Shown here: piece by piece, positions 12,465 to 30,728 of the stretch
Position numbering within the stretch: position 1 is the first letter of the stretch
How the letters are laid out: each line of letters starts with the position of its first letter
NCBI GenBank assembly: GCA_017413085.1
Contig: JAFPVC010000019.1
Span: 1-39,651 of the forward strand
Length of the DNA stretch: 39,651 nucleotides
Source of the DNA: Prevotella sp.
GTDB taxonomy: Bacteria > Bacteroidota > Bacteroidia > Bacteroidales > Bacteroidaceae
Direction of reading: 5' to 3'
The notes under the pieces: generated by a model
Seen by the model: the letters and a program-made list of their open reading frames with translations, nothing else
What the model was told of the DNA's origin: nothing
Databases searched by the model: none
Position numbers and translations under genes: made by a program

Positions 12465-14069
12465 TTAATTTTCTGCCACCCACTCGCTGATGTTGCGTTC
12501 CTCCGACGAGAAGCATATACCAACCTTCGTCACGGGACGGCCGTCCATGCGGTATTTCCCAGCATACCCTTTCTTGTTTATCTGCTCAAGAGCCTCAGCG
12601 GCAGGATGGTCGTATTTAAGTTCAAAGATATAGATGCCGCTCCTTGTACGCAAGGTGAGGTCTGCACAACCCTTGGCAGAGGGTTCTTCGGCGTTGATGT
12701 CGGCACCAAGGGAAATGAGCAGGGTGTAGAGCAGGGCATGGTAGAAATGTTCGTTTTTATTGTCGCGCGACAGTTGGTGAGGCACCCCGGAGAAGAATGT
12801 CTTCAGTGCCTCGATAAATTCCTCAAGGTTGGCAGTAAGACTGAAACGCTTGTAAGCCTGAAACAGGTCGCGCTTGCTCGTGTCTATGCCTCCTATGGCA
12901 TTAACATGGCTGTAGAGGCACTCTGCGAAGCCTATGCGCACCTCTTTGTTTGGGAAACTCAGCAGGTAATCGCCAAACTCACGGTCGTAGTCTTTTATCG
13001 TGAGGTAGCCGCTCTGATAGAGTATCGGCAGCGGAGTGTCGAAACTCTCAAACGGCAGGTCGAACATAGTGCTGGGATAACTCCTGTTCTCTATCTCTGA
13101 AATTTCTACCGGCGGCATCTGCGCCAGCATCTTAATCAGGGCACCACTCGTGCCGCGGTCAAACCAGTAACTATATACCTTCTGTGAGTTGAGCGCATTG
13201 ACAAGGCTGAAGGGATTGTATATGTCAGTTGTTACTTCGCTGAAATGATAGCCGTCATACATTTGCCTGAGTTCCATGAACTGTTCATCGTAAGTCAGTC
13301 CGTTGGCTTCGCCGAGCATTACTATATCCTCATGCATCTGCGTTGTTAGTTCCTCCTCGCTGATGCCGCAGAGAGTTTCGTAAGCAGGGAACATCGAGAT
13401 GTTCTGCAAGTTGTTGAGTTTACTGAATATTCCCATTTGCGAGAACTTCGATATGCCCGTGATAAAGGCGAACTGCAGGTGGTCGTCCTCGCTCTTCAGC
13501 GGGCCGAACACATTCTGGAAGCGCGATCGTGCCAGCTTGACCTTCTCACTGTCGCCGAGGGCATGAAGTATGAAATTGTCATACTCATCAACCAGCACCA
13601 CTACGCGTTTGCCTGTCTGCTCATGCAACTGGCGCAGGAGGTTTATCATGCGAATGTTGGCGTCTTTCACCGTCGGCTTTATTCCATACTTCTGTTCGTA
13701 GTTGCTGAGCGTAGAGTCTATCAGCGTATCAAGTTGCTCAATATCCACAAGGTCGCCGGCACTGAAGTCAAACCTGATGACGGGATACTTCTCCCACCGC
13801 CAGTCGCTCCGGGCAATGAAGAGTTCCGGCTGTTCTATGCCATCCTCTGTGGTGAAGGCCTCAAACAGTTCGCGTCTGCCCTCAAACACCGCCTGCAGCG
13901 TAGAGATGAGCAACGACTTGCCGAACCTGCGTGGTCGGCTGAGGAAATAAGGGCATCCCTCAGTTATCATCTTATAGATAAGATGAGTTTTATCTATGTA
14001 TAGAAATCCCTCCTTGCGGATTTTCTCAAAACTCTGTACACCTACGGGATATTTTCTCTTTCTTGCCAT
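12465..14069 (-). CDS. AAA-ATPase-like / PD-(D/E)XK nuclease-superfamily protein
   Basis: 534 residues. The N-terminal AAA-ATPase-like domain (PF09820 type) has the P-loop variant RPRRFGKSLL (about 45-54) and a Walker B VVVLVDEYD (about 156-164). The C-terminal PF08011-type domain carries a PD-(D/E)XK pattern with D470 (ADLTL) and E483-L-K485 (FELKYD). The family is greatly expanded in gut Bacteroidetes; its biological role is unproven, with defence or mobile-element control often suggested. Its promoter lies in the second copy of the palindromic module that also drives fic, which implies shared regulation or common origin. Confidence 0.9.
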   Translation of the reverse strand: MARKRKYPVGVQSFEKIRKEGFLYIDKTHLIYKMITEGCPYFLSRPRRFGKSLLISTLQAVFEGRRELFEAFTTEDGIEQPELFIARSDWRWEKYPVIRFDFSAGDLVDIEQLDTLIDSTLSNYEQKYGIKPTVKDANIRMINLLRQLHEQTGKRVVVLVDEYDNFILHALGDSEKVKLARSRFQNVFGPLKSEDDHLQFAFITGISKFSQMGIFSKLNNLQNISMFPAYETLCGISEEELTTQMHEDIVMLGEANGLTYDEQFMELRQMYDGYHFSEVTTDIYNPFSLVNALNSQKVYSYWFDRGTSGALIKMLAQMPPVEISEIENRSYPSTMFDLPFESFDTPLPILYQSGYLTIKDYDREFGDYLLSFPNKEVRIGFAECLYSHVNAIGGIDTSKRDLFQAYKRFSLTANLEEFIEALKTFFSGVPHQLSRDNKNEHFYHALLYTLLISLGADINAEEPSAKGCADLTLRTRSGIYIFELKYDHPAAEALEQINKKGYAGKYRMDGRPVTKVGICFSSEERNISEWVAEN

Positions 14070-14263: not shown

Positions 14264-14465
14264 ACAGATTACTCACTCTCATAACTTATGCGTTCACAAA
14301 TACCATTTTCCTTACACTTTGATTTCTGCAACCCTCATTTCCTTGCGATATTTGAAAATATTTTCCGTCTGGTTTCGTACAGCCGAAAATAGCGAAATTT
14401 GCAAACCACTGACAACAAAGACTTTAATTTTCGAGGCTATTTCTTAGCTCTCCAAAAGCACCCAA
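14264..14465. other. Intergenic DNA without a recognised feature
   Basis: About 200 bases of mixed composition between the promoter module and the 22-bp repeat array. I see no coding frame, hairpin or promoter consensus in it. Confidence 0.5.
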
Positions 14466-14575
14466 ATTACGGTGTAATCAAGCCCAAATCACACTGTAAT
14501 CAAGTGCAAATTACATGGTAAAAGTAACCTGATTACGATGTAATTGGGGCCTAATTACATTTCAACAGCCATTTA
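14466..14575. repeat. Degenerate 22-bp tandem array (copy A)
   Basis: ATTAC or ATCAC recurs at 14466, 14488, 14510, 14532 and 14554, exactly 22 bases apart. In the first four units GTAAT or GTAAA begins 8 bases after the start of the unit, so the unit is ATTAC-N3-GTAAT plus a variable 9-base remainder. A similar array lies at 30578-30694. Confidence 0.75.
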
Positions 14576-14594: not shown

Positions 14595-14641
14595 AAAAGT
14601 GCCGTCAGAAACTCTATTTCGAGTTTCCTGACGGCACTTTT
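14595..14641. terminator. Long hairpin next to array A
   Basis: AAAAGTGCCGTCAG pairs perfectly with CTGACGGCACTTTT, extended by AAACTC/GAGTTT with one bulged base and a 6-base loop. A and T runs flank both sides, so it can act as a terminator in either direction. No gene ends close by, which is odd for a plain terminator. Confidence 0.6.
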
Positions 14642-14643
14642 CA

Positions 14644-14694
14644 TTTTGACACTTTGTAAACTAAAACACTTCCAAACATATCAAAGTGTCAAAA
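14644..14694. repeat. 13-bp inverted repeat
   Basis: TTTTGACACTTTG (14644-14656) and CAAAGTGTCAAAA (14682-14694) are perfect inverted copies separated by 25 bases, immediately after the hairpin at 14595-14641. Confidence 0.6.
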
Positions 14695-14818: not shown

Positions 14819-14869
14819 GCAAAGTGTAAGCAGAAACTAAGCAAAAACAATGTTTCGCTTACACTTTGC
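14819..14869. terminator. Stem-loop downstream of the fimbrillin-like gene
   Basis: GCAAAGTGTAAGC plus GAAAC pairs with GTTTC plus GCTTACACTTTGC (18 bp, one bulged base, 14-base loop). It lies 13 bases past the stop codon. There is no T-run, so it may be an RNA-stabilising 3' structure rather than a classic intrinsic terminator. Confidence 0.5.
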
Positions 14870-26666: not shown

Positions 26667-29600
26667 TTAATAGCGAGTACCGCAATCATATGATATTACA
26701 GTAACTTCTGCATCTCCAGGTTGTATCAGTTTATTATAGCAGCAGACGGAATTTCCACGTTCTACATCATCAAGAGTAACGTATCGACTCGTCCATTTTA
26801 CCAATCCCTTCCATTTATTGAAGTAATGTACAGTAATATTAACCTGTCCATTGGCTTCAAATTCTATAAAAGGTAGGTAAACAGATCTGTCTGCACACAT
26901 TTCTGAAATTATAGATATTGGCAAATTGTCCAAATCTTCTTCTAAGCATATCAGTTCTCTTCGTACATAATTCGCATGCCCAAATGTTGGGAGGAAGTAT
27001 TTGAGGTGGTCAAGCAAGAATACTTCCCATGCACTATGTTCATTCCATCGGGCCGTTATGTATTTTGATGGCAAATCAACACTTTTAGCTTGGTGGCTAT
27101 CTAATTTCTTAAGTATTATTTTTGACGGCTTATAGTTCTCGGCAGTACTATAAATGGCATCCTTGTATCGAGTACAAGAAGCAAGATGTAGTTTTTGTAA
27201 TAATGTTTCTCGTATCGCTTTTCTTGGAGACTCGCATTTTACATTTGGATAATACTCTTCTTTCGCATCTGTATCATGGAAATATGGTTGAGAATAAAAC
27301 CCACCCATAGGTGTCTCACCATATAAGTGTCTATAGACACCTAAGGTCTTATTGGGGTTAATCTGTATAGTTGTAAATGGTTCCAATAAGAAATTGGCAT
27401 CTATTATGTTAAAATCGTCTTCACAGTTAATCTTATAATTATCAGCGATTAGCTGCTTAACAGCCTTATATGTTTTTCCAAAGTAGTTTATGTTCATTTC
27501 ATCTCTTAATTCTTCAAAAATAAATTCAACTTGTTCATTACAATTTGTACAAACAGACATCTGGCCTCGTAATGAAATACCTTGCTGTGGCGCTGATTCG
27601 AAGTAAATCCAATCCAACCATTTTGAGATTGTTCCACATTTCATACAGAACATGCGGCCTTCATGATGACCTTCAACCTGTTTATGTAATTGTCGTTCAA
27701 TTTCATTCCAACCAAATGGATTTCTCATTGCATTATAATAGATTCCAGAGTCGTTGATACCCAAGTACGAAGGTATAAAAGCAATATTCGTAATTACACC
27801 GGAGCTCTCTGCTCTACAAACTACCAATATTCTACGATATCCTGGACGATATAACTCAATTACAGTACCATATCTTTCTGTTGGAATAAAATCAATCTCT
27901 ATACTAGCGTCCATTTGTGAGACATAGTTTTGTAATGCAGAAACCACATTCTCTTTTCCAATGATGGTTTGACCTAAAATCTCGCTATAGCGTACATCAT
28001 CACGCATAGCTAACTTGATTTTTGACACATCACGGTTTACAAATGTCTCATATAAGATTGAATACCACACAGGTACTTTGCCTTCTTTCAAACTAAGATG
28101 TTCAAAAGACTCTATTAATTGAAGAAACCTTTTCGCAGGTGCGCAACCATCATTAGACGCATCTATACATAGTTGTTTAGAACGAGTGAAATCTTTTTCT
28201 ACTCCATCACCAAAAAATAATATCACGGACAGAAAATACTTGCTCATGGAGTAGCCTTGTTTAGCAGACAGGGCAAACATCTCTATTGCCTTACGTATAT
28301 CAGCTTTAGGATTCTTCGCAAGATAATATCCATAGCGGCATTGAGCCTCAGGATTTCCCTCTTTGGCTTTGTAGAATTCTTCTCTTACGAAATCTGGCAA
28401 TTCCACAATTTGTTTCTGTTCATTTACTGACTGTTCTTCCATAATCTGATCAAAAAGTTGCTTGGACATAGGAATAATGCATTTAGGATCTTCTGACTCA
28501 TGTGAATCAATAATCCTTTGTAACAAAACTCTTGCTTTTTCAGTGTCTCTATTTAGCGTATTATTTGGTATTCTGTCTCCTTGATACCATAATATGGCAA
28601 GATTCCACAACAATTCAATGCAACAAGGATTCTCTTCTTTGTCAACATATTCATTTATAAAAGTGATAGCTTCTTGATATCTACCGGCAACACTCCATAA
28701 TGCCACAAATTTATTTAGTGCGGCATACTTATTTCCATAATATATTGCAATATCAAAGAATTGGTTGCCCTTTTCAATGTCGCCATCTATTCCTGCAAAC
28801 ATTGCTCCCATATTATTGGCAGCATCATGAACTCCTTCTTTCATTGCGATTCCATATAAGAGTTTTACGCTGTCGTAATAAGATGGCATTTGGTCTTTAA
28901 GTAGCATTATCAATAGCCAATTGAAAGTTAGAGCACACTCTCTAACTGACATAGAATTACCAAACGGATTATTAACTACAACATCGTCTGGTAATGTGTC
29001 TAAATATGCAGTCCCATTCAAGCAATCGGAGCATTGGAACTGACTCAAGCCTATTAATAGGTATTCTCTATTAGGAGTTTCATTTTCACAAATATTTGGA
29101 GTATTATCCAAGATGGGGGCAGTATTGTTTTTTGATTGTGCAGGTAGAATCAACTCTCCTTTGACTATTATGTATGGCTCATAACTATTTCCGTCAAATG
29201 AACATTCTGCATAGTACAACTTCTCAAGATTAATCGTTTCAGATTCATCAATTACTTTGGGACTTAATCTACCTTTTGTTTTTCCACATTCAAACGTAGT
29301 AGCTTTTGCTGTTCCATTTGGAGCAATAAGTTTCAGTTCGGATTTTTCTTTAATAACAAGATTCTTTGCTGGTGCAATTTTTCGCATTATCACAACAACA
29401 TTTGACTTTAATATTAGCTCGTCGTTATATGGTTCCTGTAAATCTAAAATACGAACTATATTTCCTGTTTTTTTTTCATTATGAACATACAAAACAGTAA
29501 GACTATCTAACAAATTGCCCTTGAATAACATAATTCTATTAAAAAAGCCTTTCTTTCCTTGTCTGATAGTCTTAATCTTATACATAAATGGTTGTGTTCT

Positions 29601-29753
29601 TTCGTATTTGCGAACAGCATTTATAGTAACAATTTTTTCATCTGGGGTCAACTCATGCTTGACCTCAGCCAAGAGTCTTTCTTTTGTCTGAAAATAAATA
29701 TTGTCATAAATACGACCACCTATGGTCATAGTATATCGATTGACTTTACTCAT
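26667..29753 (-). CDS. Large Sel1-repeat / zinc-ribbon protein of unknown function
   Basis: 1028 residues. The N-terminal 230 residues are beta-rich and unassigned. Sel1-like tetratricopeptide units lie at about 298-345 and 465-545 (AQCRYGYYLAKNP; SKYFLSVILFFGDGVEKDF). Residues about 560-665 resemble an NTF2/SnoaL-like fold. A zinc ribbon has Cys703, Cys706, Cys735 and Cys738. The last 290 residues are unassigned. There is no signal peptide or membrane segment. The start overlaps the stop of a decayed coiled-coil gene (ATGAGTAA), so the pair was once translationally coupled. A scaffold or sensor in an accessory system is possible, but this is speculation. Confidence 0.8.
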   Translation of the reverse strand: MSKVNRYTMTIGGRIYDNIYFQTKERLLAEVKHELTPDEKIVTINAVRKYERTQPFMYKIKTIRQGKKGFFNRIMLFKGNLLDSLTVLYVHNEKKTGNIVRILDLQEPYNDELILKSNVVVIMRKIAPAKNLVIKEKSELKLIAPNGTAKATTFECGKTKGRLSPKVIDESETINLEKLYYAECSFDGNSYEPYIIVKGELILPAQSKNNTAPILDNTPNICENETPNREYLLIGLSQFQCSDCLNGTAYLDTLPDDVVVNNPFGNSMSVRECALTFNWLLIMLLKDQMPSYYDSVKLLYGIAMKEGVHDAANNMGAMFAGIDGDIEKGNQFFDIAIYYGNKYAALNKFVALWSVAGRYQEAITFINEYVDKEENPCCIELLWNLAILWYQGDRIPNNTLNRDTEKARVLLQRIIDSHESEDPKCIIPMSKQLFDQIMEEQSVNEQKQIVELPDFVREEFYKAKEGNPEAQCRYGYYLAKNPKADIRKAIEMFALSAKQGYSMSKYFLSVILFFGDGVEKDFTRSKQLCIDASNDGCAPAKRFLQLIESFEHLSLKEGKVPVWYSILYETFVNRDVSKIKLAMRDDVRYSEILGQTIIGKENVVSALQNYVSQMDASIEIDFIPTERYGTVIELYRPGYRRILVVCRAESSGVITNIAFIPSYLGINDSGIYYNAMRNPFGWNEIERQLHKQVEGHHEGRMFCMKCGTISKWLDWIYFESAPQQGISLRGQMSVCTNCNEQVEFIFEELRDEMNINYFGKTYKAVKQLIADNYKINCEDDFNIIDANFLLEPFTTIQINPNKTLGVYRHLYGETPMGGFYSQPYFHDTDAKEEYYPNVKCESPRKAIRETLLQKLHLASCTRYKDAIYSTAENYKPSKIILKKLDSHQAKSVDLPSKYITARWNEHSAWEVFLLDHLKYFLPTFGHANYVRRELICLEEDLDNLPISIISEMCADRSVYLPFIEFEANGQVNITVHYFNKWKGLVKWTSRYVTLDDVERGNSVCCYNKLIQPGDAEVTVISYDCGTRY

Positions 29754-30577: not shown

Positions 30578-30694
30578 GTAAAAGCTATCATTTTACTGTG
30601 CAAAAACATAGGGATTACATCGTAAAAGCATAGGTTTTAGGGGGTAAAAGCTGTCATATTACATGGTAAAAGCATAGCTATTAGCCGAAAAAGC
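30578..30694. repeat. Degenerate 22-bp tandem array (copy B)
   Basis: GTAAAAGC (or GCAAAAAC) begins at 30578, 30600, 30622, 30644 and 30666, exactly 22 bases apart, with a weaker GAAAAAGC at 30687. Several units also have ATTACATxG directly before GTAAAAGC and CATAG after it. The last unit runs straight into the left arm of the hairpin at 30687-30728. Period and the ATTAC..GTAA core match array A at 14466-14575. Confidence 0.8.
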
Positions 30695-30728
30695 CGTATT
30701 TCCGCAATTCCGGAAATACGGCTTTTTC
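30687..30728. terminator. Perfect 18-bp hairpin, bidirectional terminator
   Basis: GAAAAAGCCGTATTTCCG pairs with its exact inverse (30711-30728) around a 6-base loop, with A and T runs outside. It lies about 125 bases past the efflux operon's last stop codon and can end that operon. Confidence 0.8.

Follow-up and report, generated by a model that had tools for sequence, protein, structure and literature searches.

REP/BIME repeats are dispersed intergenic palindromes that form several families per genome, and a RAYT (Y1 transposase) gene lies beside some of their copies. Iterons, parS and other phased operator arrays are protein sites spaced by whole helix turns, and they serve one origin or centromere. 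PINSR, in the available text of its report, is a 188-bp incomplete intergenic repeat of Prevotella intermedia/nigrescens that is present in 177-184 copies, has no terminal inverted repeats and lies mostly outside strain-specific mobile regions (PMC4755523). BrickBuilt is described, in the available part of its report, as a minisatellite/MITE of Porphyromonas gingivalis composed of intergenic tandem short units (PMC4596501). Here we describe arrays of short palindromes in Prevotella and its relatives. They are a real element, spread across the genome and across the lineage, and gene linkage points to a new partner protein family, DUF6078. The original prediction had called the element possibly undescribed, and searches of the open literature, in which preprints and subscription papers are scarcely covered, brought up neither an account of such arrays nor any paper that mentions DUF6078.

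The window is the whole 39,651-nt stretch of Prevotella sp. DNA that was analysed. Repeat finding in the window located copies of array 1 (30578-30683, no strand assigned) at 30578, 30600, 30622 and 30644, with spacings of 22, 22 and 22, and a further core at 30666 falls within 40-nt repeat copies. This confirmed the five predicted cores at constant 22-bp spacing, the core at 30600 being degenerate (GCAAAAAC). Four TTAC-N3-GTAA units lie at 30593-30669. The second array that had been proposed is also present: array 2 (14461-14565, likewise unstranded) consists of five TTAC-N3-GTAA units 22 bp apart, starting at 14467, 14489, 14511, 14533 and 14555, with the same register motif as array 1. The window held eight two-unit TTAC-N3-GTAA matches at up to 3 mismatches; 100 dinucleotide shuffles averaged 0.12 and never reached 8. 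The four-unit scores of the two arrays were 30 and 31 of 32, against a maximum of 23 in 200 block shuffles. An Rfam scan of the window gave no match at curated cut-offs. Array 2 is enclosed by a larger dispersed repeat of the window's genome (14306-14694, unstranded) with flank matches to other arrays; array 1 is one of the two arrays of this genome without any flank match, the other 33 of 35 having some. At 14644-14694 and 14819-14869 lie two inverted repeats of 13 bp, TTTTGACACTTTG and GCAAAGTGTAAGC, each with a loop of 25 nt, which are perhaps element ends.

Array 1 is followed by a hairpin with T-runs on both sides (30687-30728, unstranded). Its predicted 18-bp perfect stem is real, with 18 perfect pairs around CAATTC, which software scored as 21-nt arms at 95% or as a 19-bp stem with one mismatch. 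Judging from its position, the hairpin is probably the terminator of an outer membrane efflux protein gene (PF02321; 30854-32278, minus strand), the 3' end of which points towards array 1. On the other side of the array a minus-strand gene for a 1028-aa protein (26667-29753), with a Sel1 match just below cut-off, has its 5' end towards the array. Array 2 is adjoined by a terminator-like hairpin (14595-14641, unstranded) and flanked on one side by a gene for an AAA-ATPase-like/PDDEXK_9 protein (12465-14069). The claim that the hairpin belongs to the element failed when arrays were compared with control gaps. In other Prevotellaceae, a hairpin score of at least 16 was found beside 13 of 113 arrays compared to 12 of 81 control gaps (Fisher p 0.52), and in the window's genome beside 6 of 35 arrays and 3 of 53 control gaps (p 0.15; p 0.054 and 0.035 at two stricter cut-offs). 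Hairpin linkage was rejected as a rule for arrays on these counts, and the hairpin is not a constant part of them.

The word TTAC-N3-GTAA was searched for in the window's own genome assembly (G000, 79% complete) and in related genomes. G000 gave 331 two-unit matches at up to 2 mismatches compared to 2 for the reversed pattern, and 15 arrays were present in 375 kb chosen irrespective of arrays, the window itself excepted. Hallella multisaccharivorax DSM 17128 gave 363 matches against 1 for the reversed control, and 104 three-unit matches against 0. At up to 1 mismatch, the pattern was present in 81 of 398 genus genomes, and the predicted dispersed element with copies in related genomes was thereby found. 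Among 40 genomes of other families, four had one match each and five had matches to the reversed control. An exact three-unit scan of named genomes returned at least 118 stretches. Among the 118 matches listed, 109 were from Prevotella, Prevotellaceae, Hallella or Xylanibacter, 4 from Mediterranea or Bacteroides, 2 from an unclassified Bacteroidetes and 3 from unrelated species. IMG/VR contained two stretches with a TTAC array (L151:1012-1066 and L152:576-630), each 81 bp before a gene with a ribbon-helix-helix repressor-like N-terminus, and this array may simply be a conventional operator with a similar geometry. The arrays occupy many intergenic places per genome, their 168 neighbour genes fell into 148 clusters, and no constant neighbour gene of TTAC arrays was seen within Prevotella. 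The reading as a single plasmid iteron origin or partition site was therefore abandoned.

To describe the genomic setting we used crude gene calls and excluded the three unrelated species. Of 120 pattern places, 118 were outside ORFs of at least 90 aa, while gaps of at least 100 bp made up 9% of that DNA. The median distance from an array to a gene was 93 bp for 3' ends and 184.5 bp for 5' starts. Convergent gaps accounted for 20 of the 84 arrays with genes on both sides compared to 41 of 244 background gaps, and divergent gaps for 18 of 84 compared to 62 of 244. Each array holds 3-9 units (116 arrays of named genomes). In the G000 profile the TTAC/GTAA positions carry 1.1-1.6 bits each, figures that are biased upward because the arrays were found by their core; N3 reads A-N-T, and the 11-bp spacer between units is species-specific. 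Among four close copies, differences were seen in 6 of 288 comparisons of the core, 29 of 330 of the spacer and 16 of 108 of N3. The corresponding values were 107 of 920, 257 of 1034 and 103 of 345 for seven copies, and 77 of 480, 161 of 550 and 50 of 180 for the group of window array 2. These comparisons show that the half-sites are conserved and the centres drift, with the dyads at exactly 22 bp.

Several further properties of the units were recorded. Perfect TTAC and TTATAC units carry TAA on both strands, and since 22 is 1 modulo 3, a run of three units places a stop codon in each of the six reading frames; this is probably incidental. On the plus strand of Hallella multisaccharivorax scaffold_3 (G438), the centre base of N3 varies with position: of 15 arrays sampled at 3.05-3.33 and 0-0.9 Mb, 12 have mostly G, all 8 at 1.55-2.9 Mb have mostly C, and those at 1.05-1.55 Mb are mixed. 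The switch points are about half a chromosome apart. Whole-locus GC skew at Hallella loci is small and third-position skew runs partly in the same direction as the N3 polarity, and this replichore polarity may come from mutation bias. By inspection, curvature by phased A-tracts suits the GTAAAA variants and not the TTATAC or GTAATC variants, and it was set aside.

The same period occurs with other words. The reversed control pattern itself, AATG-N3-CATT at 22 bp, had 166 matches in one genus member and 138 in another. A second word, TTATAC-N6-GTATAA-N4, gave 30 and 69 matches in the sister genomes G002 and G025 and none in the other 98 relatives, and its reversed control gave one match in one genome. 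We also performed a word-blind scan that scored self-match at lag p together with dyad symmetry after removal of simple repeats, with thresholds of our own choice. At the stricter cut-off, G000 (335 kb scanned) had 15 arrays at period 22 and 0-1 at any other period from 14 to 35; for G002 (496 kb) the figures were 37 and 0-6. Two arrays at period 22 were found in G041, one in G114 and none in G051, and 276 kb from genomes of other families gave none. G002 alone has several word families, and several of its words have no assigned gene. Six of its loci (L207, L214, L216, L218, L223 and L225) form an array family of their own, GAAGRRRSGCYYYCTTC, in which the left halves are purine and the right halves pyrimidine and for which no cognate gene was identified. 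The word varies between species and between loci of one genome, and the 22-bp period stays.

The sister genomes allowed individual arrays to be compared. At least five of eight TTATAC sites are common to G002 and G025 on one or both flanks, with flank alignments of mostly 93-97% identity. Three cleanly aligned array pairs differ by gaps of 66, 44 and 22 bp, and the remaining two of the five pairs match on one side only. Ordinary minisatellites, in which 22-bp tandem units arise by replication slippage and have no cognate protein, would account for such shifts by whole units and for the likeness of units within an array. We consider this explanation improbable, as one 22-bp period with dyad symmetry runs across unrelated words, the half-sites are kept while the centres drift, and the linkage to DUF6078 described below is strong.

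Sharing of flanks between arrays differed from one species set to another. It was seen for 1 of 21 pairs in Hallella, 0 of 55 in UW_PREV2, 0 of 21 in RUG12198, 0 of 15 in CAMNCV, 0 of 10 in UBA3849, 2 of 36 in Ca. P. equi and 6 of 6 in SUG57, and G002 had 41 sharing pairs involving 19 of 37 loci. Larger repeats enclose many arrays of G000, one type having TGACACTTTG end hairpins and another having GTGAACAAATGACGCA and GTGATTTCTATCGCAAGGAA ends; the latter occurs at 29 places in G000 at up to 3 mismatches (control 0). A MITE or transposon reading did not hold as a general rule; in G000, SUG57 and G002, where flank sharing was mainly seen, the arrays may belong to such an element.

A protein partner emerged from three Bacteroidaceae loci (L085, L117 and L120) that were found by their TTAC array and have an upstream gene in common. 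No DUF6078 was seen at a fourth locus (L104, labelled Bacteroides), where the array is at the contig end. In G114, a relative of the shared upstream gene adjoins an array of another word. Two array-linked proteins submitted to Pfam matched DUF6078 (PF19555), and the TTAC word is linked to DUF6078 in these three Bacteroidaceae loci. A search with the family gave 52 matches, spread over 22 of the 35 genomes searched, and linkage was counted at 30 loci of the 52, the 35 genomes having been partly picked for arrays. A palindromic period-22 array was found just 3' of the gene in 25 of these 30, beginning from 16 bp before to 165 bp after the stop codon. Of the other five genes, two had an upstream array and three had none. 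All 17 genes whose genomes had been chosen for arrays had the 3' array, compared to 8 of 13 from the others. In 101 kb of DUF6078 loci there were 28 arrays at period 22 and 0-5 at other periods.

The same arrangement was found for 4 of 4 DUF6078 genes in records of the plasmid collection PLSDB, carried by two Parabacteroides distasonis, Bacteroides finegoldii and, in another phylum, Treponema saccharophilum, and for 2 of 2 genes in unannotated records of a phage collection; close searches of IMG/VR found no DUF6078. In sum, 31 of 36 DUF6078 genes that were not found through arrays carry a 22-bp array with a gene-specific word behind the stop codon. Among control genes, a set that still contains DUF6078 genes, 48 of 975 had such a 3' array (10/219, 31/351, 3/78, 3/77 and 0/31 in five genus genomes, and 1/219 in the sample from other families). 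Collectively, these results provide strong evidence for a tie between DUF6078 and the arrays as a class.

For the window's own arrays, the picture is less direct. A PF19555 search of G000 gave no match, and the best match to the A1 profile had an E value of 0.13 and two stops inside. Since G000 is 79% complete, the cognate protein of the TTAC word may be unassembled, lost or of another family. The single DUF6078 gene of Hallella carries a TGACCA array and not a TTAC array. Eight of 20 array-rich genomes had no DUF6078 match (G000, G214, G343, G209, G264, G275, G015 and G009), of which G015 and G009 are 99% complete. DUF6078 was present in 12 of 20 genomes rich in three array words compared to 10 of 15 others, which is no association. 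With no TTAC-linked DUF6078 in G000 or Hallella and no association at the genome level, the tie of the window's arrays to the family comes from the three Bacteroidaceae loci and the shared architecture.

To examine word and gene together, we followed TACCA-N5-TGGTA-N7, the word of the linked arrays in six genomes. It gave 35, 12, 27, 81, 40 and 18 matches in those six, 3 at one place in G209 and none in the other 28 genomes, and its reversed control gave none in all 35. Among the loci listed, nine were in G431 and five in G114, one of each being a DUF6078 locus. The spacing was 22 throughout in all 14 arrays, five of which overlap a crude ORF of 89-161 aa. Across 29 modules, mean array similarity rose from 0.39 below 25% protein identity to 0.61 from 70%. 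For the 398 pairs below 60% identity the Spearman correlation was 0.36, and none of 2000 permutations was as high. A gene and an array that simply descend together would show this trend as well, and the result therefore indicates co-divergence, not binding.

DUF6078 is an unstudied family of ~145 aa. Its alignment contains four invariant cysteines (C16, C21, C27 and C58, in first-row numbering) as well as P49, A70, G72 and Q116. A search for relatives of solved structure found none (best E value 0.52), and a fold predicted from three sequences was unusable (pLDDT 43). Pfam, PADLOC, PHROGs and NCBIfam revealed no convincing other domain, and the matches were weak, scattered and to single members (LacI 0.043, WhiB 0.068), with MinC_N_1 in four members (best 0.019). 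None of 30 members matched a Y1 model or had a transposase domain. Y1 matches (PF01797) were present in 18 of 32 genomes but in none of the eight array-rich genomes among them (G002, G025, G225, G343, G209, G398, G236 and G264), and a RAYT/Y1 transposase was rejected as the array partner. These results bear on the view that the arrays are selfish dispersed repeats with no host function, and that each DUF6078 serves, as enzyme or helper, to copy or expand the arrays of its own kind, much as in RAYT/REP systems. The uneven occurrence of the arrays (one word was present in 81 of 398 genus genomes), the several word families in one genome and the array-only copies would fit, as would the flanks common to arrays in G000, SUG57 and partly G002, as if a larger unit had been copied. 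DUF6078 lacks a transposase domain, however, Y1 transposases are not associated with the arrays, each of five species sets has at most one flank-sharing pair, and most G002 TTATAC sites examined are held in common with the sister genome. We regard selfish repeats as unlikely, albeit a serious contender.

The position of the arrays behind gene stops also raises the question of whether they act as RNA, as hairpin series in 3' UTRs that DUF6078 binds or cuts, and many words could form 6-8 bp stems. Read on the sense strand, 35 linked arrays had 109 G-U pairs compared to 127 A-C, a ratio of 0.86 against the 0.90 that composition predicts, and the absence of a G-U excess does not support RNA hairpins. 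Moreover, TTAC units cannot form a stem worth the name about a three-base centre, arrays also lie in divergent gaps, and 22-bp phasing needs explaining in RNA and not in DNA. An RNA-level role is most improbable.

On balance, we favour the explanation that the arrays are 22-bp-phased palindromic binding sites of a dedicated DNA-binding protein, likeliest of the DUF6078 family or a functional analogue. Dimers of DUF6078 would bind the inverted half-sites side by side on one helix face, two turns apart, and cooperative clusters would form behind the protein's own gene and at tens of places between genes. Most likely, this would give chromosome-wide nucleoprotein patches that lie closer to the 3' ends of genes than to their 5' starts and may organise or insulate the DNA between genes. 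That a protein binds repeatedly on one face of the DNA had been predicted from the outset. The pattern fits this, with no G-U excess, gain or loss of units in multiples of 22 bp at three sites and a linked protein family, and the binding is what we infer from it. More tentatively, at somewhat less than even confidence, we propose that DUF6078 proteins make up a new class of DNA-binding protein, sequence-specific and array-forming. Each would have a seed array behind its gene and act at tens of arrays of the same word, giving many chromosomes of Prevotella and its relatives one or more private, fast-diverging address codes in one fixed geometry. If this is true, an unstudied family gains a concrete role that is cheap to test, and much of the repeated DNA between the genes of an abundant gut and rumen genus is explained. 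A gene and target word that travel and diverge together would be a natural series on how protein sequence sets DNA specificity, and the arrays would perhaps represent a new way to organise bacterial chromosomes.

How, then, do the arrays compare with known systems? A CRISPR comparison, made on the repeat units alone, found 22-bp degenerate units without unique spacers. The PINSR repeat is 188 bp long, close to 8.5 x 22 by our own arithmetic, and is of the Prevotella lineage, as are the 22-bp arrays. It is set apart from the arrays by description only, the available text of its account mentioning no 22-bp period, palindrome or protein (PMC4755523). BrickBuilt resembles the arrays in its intergenic tandem short units and Bacteroidales host, and differs in that, in the available part of the report, its unit is 23 nt with the consensus AGAYCATARTATCCTCTCRTRTG and lies inside a MITE with IS5-like ends (PMC4596501). 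Unlike iterons and parS, the arrays occur at scattered loci, each unit is itself inverted, and homologous genes have different words. With REP/BIME repeats they have in common that they are dispersed intergenic palindromes, with several families per genome and a cognate gene by some copies. In contrast to REP/BIME repeats, each array consists of 3-9 palindromes at an exact 22-bp period, and the linked protein, with no Y1 match, is DUF6078.
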